From positions 27,589 to 91,588 of the forward strand of contig VMDC01000010.1 of assembly GCA_008081045.1 (NCBI GenBank): 64,000 bases of DNA, given 5' to 3'. The DNA is from Gammaproteobacteria bacterium (GTDB lineage: Bacteria; Pseudomonadota; Gammaproteobacteria; Pseudomonadales; Pseudohongiellaceae). The stretch's first letter is position 1. The number at the start of each line of letters is the position of its first letter. Position numbers and translations under genes: made by a program. Positions 8,745 through 20,166 of the stretch are shown here, one piece after another. Under the pieces are notes generated by a model. The model was not told where the DNA came from and did no database searches. It worked only from the letters and a program-made list of their open reading frames with translations.

Positions 8745-9929
8745 ATGAGCAAAGTGTTAGAAGGCATCAGGGTGTTAGACTTCGGGCGCTATATCGCGGG
8801 CCCTTACTGCGCGACACTCCTGGCAGATCTTGGTGCCGACGTCATCCGCATCGAAAAAGTTGACGGCTCGGAAGACCGCTTCGTCTCTCCGGTCACTGAC
8901 ACCGGCGATGGCGCCATGTTTCTGCAGCTCGGGCGCAACAAGCGGGGCCTGACGCTGAACCCGATGAAACCTGAGGGGCGCGAAATTGTGAAGAAACTGG
9001 TTGCGACGGCCGATGTGGTCGTCGCCAATCTACCGCCTGACACTCTGAGCGCTATGGGGCTGGACTACGAAAGTCTGACCCAGATCAAACCCGACATTAT
9101 CCTGACCATGATTTCCGCTTTTGGCCGCGGCGGCCCCTACTCGAATCGAGTCGGTTTCGACGGGCTCGGACAGGCCATGTCGGGGAATATGTATATGTCA
9201 GGCACACCCGACCAGCCGGTCAAAGCCTATGCGCCGTTCATCGATTTTGGTACTGCCAGTCTGTCTGCCTTTGGCACGCTCGCAGCGCTTTACGAGCGAC
9301 AGAAGACCGGCAAGGGTCAGATTGTGGAAGGAGCGCTGTTCAATACTGCCCTGACGATGATGAACGCGACTGCGATCGAACAGCAGGCGCTTCAGGTTAA
9401 CCGGACGGCGACCCTTAATCGCTCCCAAACCTCGGCCCCGGCTGATACTTTCCAGACAAAAGACGGGTGGGTTCTGGTACAGACTGTGGGTGGCCCGCTG
9501 TTCAAACGCTGGGCGGAACTGATGGGAGAAGACCATTGGCTGGAAGATCCCCGGTTTAAAGACGACATCAGCCGCGGGGACAACGGCGAAATCATCAGCA
9601 ACAGGCTGGCCTTGTGGTGTGCTGAGCGCACAACTGACGAGGTGCTTCAGGAAATGGAAACCGCCAGAATCCCCGCAGGACCGATACTCTCGCCTCAGGA
9701 TGTTCTGAATGACCCTCATATTGCCGCCAAGGGCCTGTTTCAGCCAGTTGAATTTCCTGGCCTGCCCAATGCTGCCCCAATCATGCAGACGCCTGTGGAG
9801 CTTTCGGACACCCCCGGTGAAATACGCCACCGGGCTCCGACCCTCGGCGAACATACTGAAGCCATTTTGCAGGATCTGGGCTACACGGAGACCGAAATCG
9901 CAGATTACCGTGCCCAGAGAATTGTCTGA
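8745..9929 (+). CDS. Family III CoA-transferase (CaiB/BaiF)
   Basis: Moves CoA between carboxylic acids. The 394-residue product begins MSKVLEGIRVLDFGRYIAGPYC and contains LLADLGADVIRIEKVDG, a nucleotide-binding-like block standard for this family. FGRGGPYSNRVGFDGLGQAMSG follows. The catalytic aspartate of family III enzymes should lie in the region after FDGLGQAMSG, which is not diagnostic here by eye. Substrates cannot be assigned. The gene could feed the acyl-CoA module at 18-21.6 kb, for example as a dicarboxylate CoA-transferase, but it is not adjacent to it. Its stop is 69 bp before the next gene. Confidence 0.9.
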   Translation: MSKVLEGIRVLDFGRYIAGPYCATLLADLGADVIRIEKVDGSEDRFVSPVTDTGDGAMFLQLGRNKRGLTLNPMKPEGREIVKKLVATADVVVANLPPDTLSAMGLDYESLTQIKPDIILTMISAFGRGGPYSNRVGFDGLGQAMSGNMYMSGTPDQPVKAYAPFIDFGTASLSAFGTLAALYERQKTGKGQIVEGALFNTALTMMNATAIEQQALQVNRTATLNRSQTSAPADTFQTKDGWVLVQTVGGPLFKRWAELMGEDHWLEDPRFKDDISRGDNGEIISNRLALWCAERTTDEVLQEMETARIPAGPILSPQDVLNDPHIAAKGLFQPVEFPGLPNAAPIMQTPVELSDTPGEIRHRAPTLGEHTEAILQDLGYTETEIADYRAQRIV

Positions 9930-12558: not shown

Positions 12559-12661
12559 CGGAGGACTGCTTGAACTGCCGGGGTACCGACCCTGCCCTGC
12601 CTCTTTTTATTCGCCGGATTTGCCGCTATTCTTGCAACAAAAAAACAGGAGCGCCAGCGAC

Positions 12662-13540
12662 GTGACGACCCCCTACGACGTGCCCTACATGGAGCGCACC
12701 CGCCTCTACTACGAGGCTCAGGGATACACCACCCCATATCAGTGGGCGCACCACGACGACACCCCCTTCACCCAGCTGAGCAAGTCGCTGCCTCAATCAC
12801 GGGTGGGCCTGGTTACGACGGCCATGCCAGACACTGAACAGGGACGTGCCGAACGCAAACTTTATTCAACCCCCTCAAGGCCGGTCCCGGATTCCATGTT
12901 CACACTGGGCCTGTCCTGGCACGATACGGTGACTCACACGCGTGATGTAGGCAGCTTTCTGCCGATCGAAGCTCTGCTCACAATTGAGTCCGAGGGAGGT
13001 ATCGGCAGTCTGGCTTCGCAGTATCAATCAGTCCCCACCGCCTACAGTCAGCGTCAAACCATTGAAGAAGACGCGCCCGCCATTGTTGACCTCATGAATA
13101 AAGATGAGGTGGATGTCGCAATCCTCGTTCCCTTGTGACCTGTCTGCCACCAGACCGTGAGTCTGGTTGCCCGTTATCTGGAAAACAGCGGCATTCCGAC
13201 AGTCGTCGTCGGCAGCGCGCTGGACATTATTGAGCACGTCGGAGTCCCACGCTATCTGCATACAGATTTCCCTCTGGGAAATCCGTTGGGCACTCCCTAT
13301 GACCGCGAAATGCAACGACAACACGTCGACATGGCACTGGATCTGCTGGACAAAGCCTCTCAGGCCAATGCGGTGAGTCGCTCGCCGTTTTCCTGGCAAG
13401 GGGACGCTGGCTGGCGGGACGACTACTCAAGAGTAACCGATGCCAATCGTGCGGCCCTGGCTGCGGCCGGAGAAGCGCGCCGCGCTAAACAGCGTGCCAT
13501 GAAAAAAACCAATCCAAAACAGCAAATCCCGATGCCCTGA
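12662..13540 (+). CDS. GrdB/PrdB-like oxidoreductase, candidate selenoprotein (UGA = Sec159)
   Basis: Two ORF-track pieces (12455-13138 and 13157-13540) are in the same frame and are separated by a single TGA at 13136-13138. Read as selenocysteine, this gives one 292-residue protein from the GTG at 12662, which has AGGAG nine bases upstream. The segment around the UGA reads VDVAILVPL-U-PVCHQTVSLVARYLE and then SGIPTVVVGSALDIIEHVG, matching the family of glycine/sarcosine/betaine and D-proline reductase selenoprotein B (Pfam GRDB, as I recall), where Sec lies in UxxC. Conservation runs straight across the stop and both halves keep good coding character. A SECIS-like hairpin follows at the right distance. 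The substrate is unknown; partner subunits of glycine or proline reductase are not nearby, so it is likely one of the standalone proteobacterial homologues. The alternative is a pseudogene with a nonsense mutation. Confidence 0.82.
13146..13170 (+). promoter_or_regulatory. Bacterial SECIS-like hairpin
   Basis: Just after the UGA at 13136-13138, ACCAGAC (13149-13155) pairs perfectly with GTCTGGT (13161-13167) around the 5-nt loop CGUGA. After one mismatch, GC/GC extends the stem. The distance from UGA to the apical loop is 17 nt and the second loop base is G, fitting the published bacterial SECIS rules (16-37 nt, G among the first two loop bases) as I recall them. It would recruit SelB. Confidence 0.75.
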
Positions 13541-13580: not shown

Positions 13581-14450
13581 ATGAAAACAACAGGACTCTT
13601 CTCCGCCCTCGTCCTCACCACAGCATGGCTCCACGCCTGGTCTTCCGCGACTGCTCAGGAGGTTCGAATTTACAACACCGTTAAAAGCAAACTCATCGCG
13701 GGGCAGCAGGTCGTGGGCGGAACCGTGGATACCGCGGATCCGGAGATCTACTGCGCCATGGCCAATGCAGGCTTTGATTTTATCTGGATTGAAATGCAGC
13801 ACAGCCCCCTCTCCTTCAGCGAGGCAGCACGAATGATCTGGGCCTGCCGGGATGCACCTGCCATACCGTTTATCAGAGTCCCCGATGCCAGCGAAGGAAC
13901 GATCCAGAAGGCCACAGATATCGGCGCGTTAGGCATTATTGTGCCGATGGTCGACAGTGCGGAGAAAATGGCTGATGCCGTGCGGTATGCCAAATATCCG
14001 CCACAGGGGCGCCGCAGTCAGGGAGGAGGACAATACGGGCGATTATGGGGGCGTGATTATCGACAAACCTGGAATGACAATGTGCTGATCATTGCCATGA
14101 TCGAAACCCTGGAAGGCACTGCCGAGGCTGACAAGATTGCTTCCGTAGCAGGCGTGGACGGGGTATTCGTCGCCAGCGGAGATCTAGGCAGCTTCAGTGG
14201 CAAGCGCCAGGGAGAGCCGGAATACGAAAGTCTGGTAGCGCGTATCAAGGAAGAGACCGAAGGCGCGGGTAAATTCCTCGGAGGCCCCTCCGCGTGGATG
14301 TCCGAACGCGAAGGCTATCAATTTTTCCAGGCACCCAGCACCAGCAGTCTGATCCGAATCGGAGCCAGAATCACGCTTGAAGCGGCGGACCCATGCCGTT
14401 TCCTGCCTTCGGGAGCCACTCCGGTAGACGGAGAGAACCCCTGCCCCTGA
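13581..14450 (+). CDS. HpcH/HpaI-family aldolase with signal peptide
   Basis: Class II, metal-dependent aldolases of this family cleave 4-hydroxy-2-oxo acids to pyruvate and an aldehyde. The 289-residue product has FIWIEMQHSPLSF, RVPDASEGTIQKATDIGALGI and IETLEGTAEADKIASVAGVDGVFVASGDL, all family hallmarks. Unusually it begins MKTTGLFSALVLTTAW with likely cleavage after SSATAQ, so it is predicted to be exported. It lies 40 bp after the GrdB-like gene on the same strand and may be co-transcribed with it. The actual substrate is unknown. It is convergent with the amidohydrolase gene. Confidence 0.87.
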   Translation: MKTTGLFSALVLTTAWLHAWSSATAQEVRIYNTVKSKLIAGQQVVGGTVDTADPEIYCAMANAGFDFIWIEMQHSPLSFSEAARMIWACRDAPAIPFIRVPDASEGTIQKATDIGALGIIVPMVDSAEKMADAVRYAKYPPQGRRSQGGGQYGRLWGRDYRQTWNDNVLIIAMIETLEGTAEADKIASVAGVDGVFVASGDLGSFSGKRQGEPEYESLVARIKEETEGAGKFLGGPSAWMSEREGYQFFQAPSTSSLIRIGARITLEAADPCRFLPSGATPVDGENPCP

Positions 14451-17973: not shown

Positions 17974-18007
17974 TTGGGATTTGTTATTTGGGATTTGGGA
18001 TTTGTTA
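17974..18007. repeat. Short direct repeats, TTGGGATTTGTTA
   Basis: A 13-bp unit occurs at 17974-17986 and 17995-18007, with a partial copy TTGGGATTT between them. It lies between the MBL-fold gene and the acyl-CoA dehydrogenase gene and includes the latter's stop codon. It is much more T-rich than its surroundings. Confidence 0.7.
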
Positions 18008-19171
18008 ATAGGAACGCGGCAATCCCAGTTCGTGCTCCGAGATAAAATTCAAAATCATTTCCTGAGAAATAGGCGCGAGCTTCATCAGACGGGCCTCCCG
18101 CCAGTACCGTTCAACGTGATACTCCCGGGCATAGCCAAACCCCCCGTGGGTCTGCATGGCCGCATCCGCTGCGTAAAACCCGGCCTCGGCTGCCAGCCAC
18201 TTAGCCATGTTTGCTTCGGTACCACATGGCATCCCCTGATCCAGCTTCCAAGCGGCCTTTTGCACCATCAAACCGGCAGCATCCAGCCGGGTTCTGGCCT
18301 CAGCCAGCGGAAAGGCAATCCCCTGATTTTTACCAATCGGTCTGCCAAACACCACCCGCTCATTGGCGTAAGACACCGCTCGCGCCAGCGCTGCACGGCC
18401 AATTCCTACTGCTTCTGCGGCAATCAGGATTCGTTCAGCATTCAATCCGTCCAGCAGATAGCGAAAGCCTTTGCCCTCTTCTCCCACCCGATCGGATTCA
18501 ACAACCTTCAGCTCATCGTAAACCACCTCACAGGTTCTCACCGCATTGCGACCAAGCTTTTCAATCGGAGAAATGGCCACCTCCGGACGCTTGAGTTCAG
18601 CGAACAACAGCGTCATCCCGTCGGTTTTTCGCTCAACTTCCTGCTTGCTCTGTGTTCGAACGAGAAGTAGCACCCTATCCGATTCAAGCGCCTTGGTGGT
18701 CCACACTTTCCTGCCGCTCACGACATAATGACCATCCACCAGACTTGCTCTGGTCTCGATTGATGTCGTATCGCTACCGGCGTTAGGCTCAGTCACCCCG
18801 AAGGCGACCTGAAGCTTGCCACTGGCAACATCCGGCAAATAACGCTTTTTCATGCTCTCTGAGCCATGCTTGATGACCGGATGCATGCCAAACATGGACA
18901 AATGCAGGGGTGTTGCACCATTCATCGCAGCGCCTGATGCTGCCACCTGCTCCAGCACCACGGCGGCTTCCTGCACGCCCTTGCCGGCGCCGCCATAGGC
19001 TTCAGGGATCGCGATACCGATCCAGCCTGCCTCAGCCATGGCATCATAAAATTCCTGCGGATACTGGCCTTCGCGATCCAGCTTTTCCCAATACTCATCG
19101 GGAAAATCCCGGCACACATTGCTGACCGCCTCGCGAATCAGCTTCAGGTCAATCGGCTCAGAAAAATCCAC
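18005..19171 (-). CDS. Acyl-CoA dehydrogenase
   Basis: FAD enzyme that desaturates an acyl-CoA at C2-C3 and passes electrons to ETF. The 388-residue product (GTG start) carries FGVTEPNAGSDTT, the SGRKVWTT block and QTHGGFGYAREYHVERYWREAR. The usual catalytic Glu of short- and medium-chain enzymes (in YEGT) is replaced here by APIS. A Glu at about 246 in LNAERILIAAE aligns instead with the base of isovaleryl-CoA and long-chain dehydrogenases. It is upstream-linked to CitE and MaoC genes on the same strand, which suggests a branched or dicarboxyl-CoA substrate. Confidence 0.92.
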   Translation of the reverse strand: MDFSEPIDLKLIREAVSNVCRDFPDEYWEKLDREGQYPQEFYDAMAEAGWIGIAIPEAYGGAGKGVQEAAVVLEQVAASGAAMNGATPLHLSMFGMHPVIKHGSESMKKRYLPDVASGKLQVAFGVTEPNAGSDTTSIETRASLVDGHYVVSGRKVWTTKALESDRVLLLVRTQSKQEVERKTDGMTLLFAELKRPEVAISPIEKLGRNAVRTCEVVYDELKVVESDRVGEEGKGFRYLLDGLNAERILIAAEAVGIGRAALARAVSYANERVVFGRPIGKNQGIAFPLAEARTRLDAAGLMVQKAAWKLDQGMPCGTEANMAKWLAAEAGFYAADAAMQTHGGFGYAREYHVERYWREARLMKLAPISQEMILNFISEHELGLPRSY

Positions 19172-19242
19172 AGCTCATTTATTCCCGTTTAATCAGTGCA
19201 ACAGACAGCACGCAGTCGCGGGCCAGGTGGTCTATTGTTGCT

Positions 19243-20166
19243 TCAGCTTTTCAGCTGAACATCAATTTGCTCAGCAATGGCAAGCACCTTGCGGGCGCGT
19301 TTCAGATGCGGCACATCAACCATCTGCCCGTTGAAGCTGAACGCCATCTTGCCTTCCGACTGGGCTTCAGCAAACGCCATAAGCAGTTCCCTGGCGGCTG
19401 CGACCTCCCTTTCGCTCGGCGTAAAAGCCCTGTTCACCACATCAACCTGAGTCGGATGAATCGTCAGTTTACCCATAAATCCCATTGCAGCCGCCTCAGC
19501 ACATTCTTTAGCCAGCGCGGCCTGCTCTGTAATTTCGACAAAAACTGTATCAATGGGGTGCACCTGATTCGCGACAGCCGCCAGCAGGCAGGATGAACGA
19601 ACAAAGCGGAACACATCAAGATAGACTCCTTCAGCGTTTCGCTTGGCGCGAGCGCCCAACTCCCCGGCGAGATCCTCGGCTCCCCAGGTAAGACCGTCCA
19701 CCCTGCCGTTGCCTGCCATATCAGCAAGACAAAACACCGCCTCAGGCAGTTCGGTCCCGATCAGCACCAGAGAAATTGCGCCAGGTTGCACATTATTTTG
19801 CTCCTCAATCGCGCTGATCAGCTGGTCGACCGCGTCCACACTGGCGCGACTGCTTACTTTGGGAAGCACCAGCCCATCCGGACGCGCCGCAGCAATCGCT
19901 TCAGCATCATCTCTTCCCCACGGCGAATCCTGCGGATTTATGCGAACCAGACATTCTTTCGCGCCAAAGTCTGCCTGTTCAATCCAGTCGCAAACCGCCC
20001 TTCGGGCTGCTTCCTTGTTCTCCGGCGTGACCGAATCTTCCAGATCAAGAATCAGAGTATCCGCATTCAGCGTCAGCGCCTTCTCGAACATTCGTGCATT
20101 ACCGCCCGGCACGAAATGCAGTGATCTGCGAGGGCCTTTCGGCCCTGGAGTTGGAACCACTGCCAT
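19243..20166 (-). CDS. CitE-like CoA-ester lyase
   Basis: Members of the HpcH/HpaI-CitE superfamily cleave malyl-CoA, citramalyl-CoA or related 3-hydroxyacyl-CoA esters. The 307-residue product has RRSLHFVPGGNARMFEKAL, LILDLEDSVTPENK (metal-binding Asp/Glu), RINPQDSPWGRDD, LTWGAEDLAGELG and GFMGKLTIHPTQV, all family features. Its ATG lies three bases past the stop of the MaoC gene, so the two are surely co-transcribed. Pairing with a MaoC hydratase points to hydration of an enoyl-CoA followed by cleavage; citramalyl-CoA lyase is one option. Confidence 0.92.
   Translation of the reverse strand: MAVVPTPGPKGPRRSLHFVPGGNARMFEKALTLNADTLILDLEDSVTPENKEAARRAVCDWIEQADFGAKECLVRINPQDSPWGRDDAEAIAAARPDGLVLPKVSSRASVDAVDQLISAIEEQNNVQPGAISLVLIGTELPEAVFCLADMAGNGRVDGLTWGAEDLAGELGARAKRNAEGVYLDVFRFVRSSCLLAAVANQVHPIDTVFVEITEQAALAKECAEAAAMGFMGKLTIHPTQVDVVNRAFTPSEREVAAARELLMAFAEAQSEGKMAFSFNGQMVDVPHLKRARKVLAIAEQIDVQLKS

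Follow-up and report, generated by a model that had tools for sequence, protein, structure and literature searches.

A UGA-interrupted PrdB/GrdB-like gene of a Pseudohongiellaceae bacterium as a probable stand-alone selenoprotein

Two adjoining open reading frames that resemble the halves of one PrdB/GrdB-like gene raise the question of whether the locus is broken or encodes a selenoprotein and, if the latter, whether that protein is a proline or glycine reductase of the known sort. The locus lies in the window, the whole stretch of 64,000 nucleotides of gammaproteobacterial DNA that was analysed. A preliminary description had placed the two pieces in one frame, split by one TGA, and this was confirmed both by reading of the frame and by 59 genomes of the same genus. 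The single frame opens with GTG 12662 and closes with the stop TGA at 13538-13540, and its sole interruption is the TGA at 13136-13138 (codon 159), which falls within VPL-U-PVCHQ in the translation ...DVAILVPL-U-PVCHQTVSLVARYLENSGIPTVVVGSALDI...; the remaining five frames over 12662-13540 contain 5-18 stops each. The start proposed by the ORF finder, ATG 12455, is in the same frame as GTG 12662, and the alignment of relatives begins at about the GTG. The gene is single-copy in the window's genome, and its closest named relative (98% identity) belongs to an uncultured Pseudohongiella sp. (L049). A gene caller unaware of selenocysteine (Sec) would give two fragments or a pseudogene for 12662-13540. 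The features on which the argument depends are these:

12647..12651, + strand: AGGAG, likely ribosome-binding site, 10 nt 5' of the GTG, judged from sequence only
12662..13540, + strand: predicted selenoprotein gene, PrdB/GrdB-like, 292 codons plus stop, GTG start
13136..13138, + strand: in-frame TGA, putative Sec codon 159 of the UPVC motif; TGA in all Sec members, TGC/TGT (Cys) in others
13145..13147, + strand: codon of the probable resolving cysteine C162 (U-P-V-C), invariant in the alignment
13146..13170, + strand: predicted bacterial SECIS hairpin within the coding sequence (fold, synonymous-site freeze, covariation)
13146-13147 with 13169-13170, + strand: lower pairs of this hairpin
13149-13155 with 13161-13167, + strand: stem of this hairpin
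13156-13160, + strand: SECIS loop CGUGA, near-invariant

The apparent half-genes are read here as one intact gene in which the internal UGA would be translated as selenocysteine. Fifty-nine genomes of the same genus have a copy that reaches across codon 159, and exactly one in-frame TGA is present in all 59; it falls within UxxC in every copy examined. Three short matches without a TGA stop short of that codon. Because protein identity within the genus falls to about 51%, the UGA form is old. The preliminary description had assigned the UGA to the Sec position of UxxC and had taken both sides of it for the same conserved gene. Alignment with homologues bore out each point: 44 of 65 copies examined carry Sec at this column and 21 carry Cys, with no unrelated residue, and the sequence outside the column is conserved among relatives, without decay. 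The Cys members come from a SAR116 bacterium (L060), several gammaproteobacterial families and several alphaproteobacterial genomes, and the tree requires about four Sec/Cys changes. One Cys copy, L115 (G706:C1:2994212-2995066), is sister to the Sec copy L117 and retains most of the SECIS hairpin; its genome is without selB, and it looks like a recent Sec-to-Cys conversion.

The putative SECIS element lies directly downstream, its apical loop beginning 17 nt 3' of the UGA. The stretch CACCAGACCGTGAGTCTGG is nearly frozen at synonymous sites: normalised codon entropy at conserved amino acids is 0.24 in codons 162-168 against a mean of 0.86 elsewhere, and 100,000 random draws gave no value so low. 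Across the alignment, 93% of cells are paired in the hairpin (9 pairs), compared with 24-31% for slid versions, and covariation is seen at pair 15-31, where C-G is replaced by U-A in 7 of 25 sequences. Sec members keep a mean of 6.7 of the 7 core pairs, Cys members 4.6; the loop CGUGA is found in nearly all Sec members, and the hairpin is degraded in most Cys members. Total folding energy separates the two groups poorly, since G+C-rich Cys members fold regardless. The fold of the single sequence is unremarkable by itself (z -1.5), and the case for the predicted hairpin is a comparative one that does not depend on it. A search of the whole window with Rfam at gathering scores gave no SECIS and one tRNA only. 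Few bacterial SECIS elements have models, so this negative is not counted against the hairpin.

The machinery for selenocysteine insertion, whose genes the preliminary description had named as the ones to seek, is complete: a genome-wide search found selA (549 bits), selB (392 bits), tRNA-Sec (selC, 66.6 bits) and selD (285 bits), all above curated cut-offs. Of the genomes tested, all 14 that carry the UGA form have selB, as against 2 of 19 Cys-only genomes, the other 17 being without it, counts that come from related genomes and have no formal p value attached. The reading as a pseudogene with a true nonsense mutation, or as a sequencing error, has only the in-frame stop codon in its favour and is for practical purposes ruled out by the recurrence of this TGA in 59 genomes and across other families as well, the synonymous-site freeze, the covariation of the SECIS hairpin and the Sec machinery. 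Five further genomes of the genus (G009, G011, G035, G041, G054) contain selB and gave no PrdB-like gene; there, the Sec trait probably persists on account of other selenoproteins.

The kinship with GrdB and PrdB claimed from the first reading was upheld by profile searches. The best NCBIfam match is PrdB (TIGR04483, E 7e-22), which scores 78 bits where the equivalog cut-off is 300; the NCBIfam models of the GrdB group match next, all under the curated cut-off, and Pfam GRDB (PF07355) gives 16.6 bits against a gathering score of 22, over profile positions 276-345 of 347 alone. All five GrdB/PrdB models are matched by 31 of the 31 aligned members, and broad homology to the superfamily is present around the [UC]xxC motif. 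The likeness to PrdB covers residues 37-246 and places the Sec of UxxCH in the same column, aligned with the clostridial U-GTCHR; Sec/Cys exchange is known in PrdB as in the window family. The window protein differs in having UPVCHQ (the family signature is this or a close variant) where PrdB has UGTCHR, and in having conserved N-terminal (~36 residues) and C-terminal parts beyond the match. About 30 positions are invariant across the protein, including Y17, Y26, W28, R197, D202, W245, W251 and R274, of which all but R197 and D202 fall beyond the PrdB match or at its margin. When two true PrdB proteins were included in a tree, rooted by midpoint only and with a long branch to one deep member (L083), the family formed a separate clade with a very long branch to PrdB.

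Compared with GrdB, GrdF and GrdH (PF07355, TIGR01917, TIGR01918, NF040794, NF040795), residues 87-236 correspond to the C-terminal part of GrdB, including UxxC, but the window protein has ~290 residues as against ~435, the N-terminal part of GrdB is absent, all scores are under curated cut-offs, and neither GrdE (PF09338) nor a credible GrdA accompanies it. Equal in size and motif are proteins that NCBI names 'glycine/sarcosine/betaine reductase selenoprotein B family protein' (WP_207415257.1 and WP_035710215.1, from plasmids of Roseomonas haemaphysalidis and Haematobacter massiliensis), with 42-43% identity over 85%. These likewise have no Prd or Grd partner adjoining, but carry Cys, not Sec, at the column.

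A pyruvoyl subunit, PrdA/GrdE (PF09338), is part of D-proline reductase and of the enzymes of the glycine reductase family, and its pyruvoyl group activates the amine in proline or glycine reduction. No PF09338 protein was found in the window's genome (96% complete, so that a PrdA gene could conceivably lie in a gap) or in three congeners, and the same search, as a positive control, finds PrdA on an Enterococcus plasmid. A search for GrdA (PF04723) in the window's genome gave a sub-cut-off match only (12.6 bits, E 0.156). The earlier assumption that glycine- and proline-reductase partners are missing is upheld for the window's genome. True prdB genes occur in the context prdC-prdA-prdB-prdD with a proline racemase; nothing alike was seen around the window gene, which has no PrdA, PrdC or racemase nearby, or at the loci of its relatives. 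The gene product appears, from genomic sequence, to be a stand-alone protein. In Clostridia, a gene named prdB on a Peptoclostridium acidaminophilum plasmid (L137, 4935-5648; UGTC) has no prdA listed beside it, and a stand-alone PrdB may exist there too.

The protein could nevertheless be a D-proline reductase PrdB whose PrdA-like partner went undetected, as would agree with TIGR04483 being the best named family, with the way in which Sec and the C-H after it line up with clostridial UGTCH, and with the name PrdB given to marine members in the Sargasso and Global Ocean Sampling (GOS) papers (PMC1088965, PMC2398784). This is quite improbable in view of the score far below the equivalog cut-off, the negative PF09338 search of four genomes of the genus, with the control positive, the lack of the gene context of true prdB and the very long branch between PrdB and the window family. 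The protein is homologous to PrdB and GrdB, and closest to PrdB, yet by its match of 78 bits against 300 it would not be D-proline reductase PrdB.

Gene neighbourhood contributes little to the question of function. The window gene is followed by an HpcH/HpaI-aldolase gene (13581-14450), an order seen in 17 loci, and preceded by a divergent epoxide-hydrolase-like (alpha/beta hydrolase) gene in 25 loci, in both cases in the genus only; the region within the genus also has class III CoA-transferase, acyl-CoA dehydrogenase, CoA-lyase-like and MaoC-like genes, the names being given from sequence character, without domain search. No neighbour is conserved beyond the genus, where the neighbours change completely, and operon context therefore tells little. 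Neighbours that cluster (<=4.5 kb) between lineages are mainly class III CoA-transferases (the genus and f255) and FAH-family hydrolases (f230 and f200); a function drawn from them was rejected, both families being too frequent to count for much. At most, the neighbourhood hints at organic acid metabolism. Window positions 8745-9929 and 18005-20166 hold, in one region that is syntenic within the genus, genes for a class III CoA-transferase, an acyl-CoA dehydrogenase and a lyase of CitE/HpcH-like type, and this region looks like an organic acid degradation cluster.

The AlphaFold2 model, a confident one, is of an alpha/beta protein (pLDDT 91, pTM 0.91) in which strand 152-156 is followed by Sec159 and helix 160-175. 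No related solved structure was found by sequence search, and a fold search of the PDB and viral models gave no match at E <= 0.001; fold hits to glutamate racemase, dihydroxyacid dehydratase and 2-hydroxyacyl-CoA dehydratase were weak and were set aside. As there is no confident match to a solved structure, the active site is not readable off a known enzyme. A mechanism can still be proposed. SelB and Sec-tRNA would decode UGA 159 via the hairpin directly downstream, and the product would be a protein of one domain, probably cytoplasmic, whose homologues are PrdB and the C-terminal part of GrdB, with Sec159 where a strand gives way to a helix and the invariant Cys162 completing U-x-x-C. The selenolate would attack an electrophilic small substrate, the reduced product would leave, Cys162 would resolve the adduct to give a selenenylsulfide, and thioredoxin or a low-molecular-weight thiol would re-reduce the latter. 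The substrate might perhaps be a small organic acid derivative or its CoA ester. With no PrdA/GrdE to supply a pyruvoyl group, the protein is not expected to be a known type of D-proline or glycine reductase, and reduction of proline or glycine in the known manner is unlikely.

It was concluded, with a probability of about 0.7, that the locus is an intact selenoprotein gene whose product would be a stand-alone UxxC reductase with a Sec159/Cys162 redox mechanism, and not a proline or glycine reductase of known type. The alternative that survives best is a selenol/thiol redox protein without substrate specificity, acting on disulfides or peroxides, in which the PrdB fold has been reused in the manner of a thioredoxin or peroxidase. 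The UxxC motif, the replacement of Sec by Cys in several lineages and a weak Thioredoxin_3 match (residues 151-182, E 0.064) are consistent with such a protein, but the spread of some 30 invariant positions across the whole length suggests a specific substrate pocket, and this alternative is considered rather unlikely.

The conclusion that the window gene probably encodes a partnerless reductase bears on a set of marine genes that was described early. A survey of the Sargasso Sea in 2005 reported 42 'PrdB' Sec genes (PMC1088965), the GOS survey of 2008 reported 235 Sec and 110 Cys genes for marine PrdB (PMC2398784), and in 2021 proline reductase selenoproteins made up 6.4% of marine selenoprotein genes (PMC9402790). 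These papers assign D-proline reduction by homology, and the literature search found no paper giving PrdB-type marine selenoproteins or their relatives a tested function. The window gene shares with this set the UxxC motif, a relation to PF07355 and abundance in surface-ocean bacteria, and is very probably a member of it, by inference rather than by comparison of those sequences. The genome evidence for the window lineage speaks against D-proline reduction, however, and for that lineage the label 'proline reductase' looks wrong. Of the undescribed activity that the preliminary description had proposed, the activity itself is plausible, but the family had already been catalogued in 2005 and 2008 (PMC1088965, PMC2398784); it is known at the sequence level from the three marine surveys and from the Cys relatives named by NCBI.

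If the window lineage is typical, a good share of the marine 'proline reductases' are without their catalytic partner, and the chemistry of a selenoprotein family that ranks among the commonest in the sea would have to be worked out afresh. Tentatively, and with rather less assurance than attaches to the gene itself, a PrdA/GrdE-independent selenoenzyme family may extend across ocean Proteobacteria, performing pyruvoyl-free reductive bond cleavage on an organic substrate and mislabelled as proline reductase for twenty years. The Cys relatives in culturable alphaproteobacteria offer an easy, selenium-free route to an assay.

A second, longer GrdB-like family came to light in other genomes, with open frames of ~380-425 codons, an in-frame TGA of its own and a long C-terminal part. 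A genome search did not find it in the window's genome; its members include L095 (G504) and L096 (G409:C42:5112-5588), which share the motif VLAPV-U-PACTRAVSG, with matches in G075, G045, G066, G051 and G046. In G409, the gene of this second family shares a contig with selB, which is ~3 kb away.
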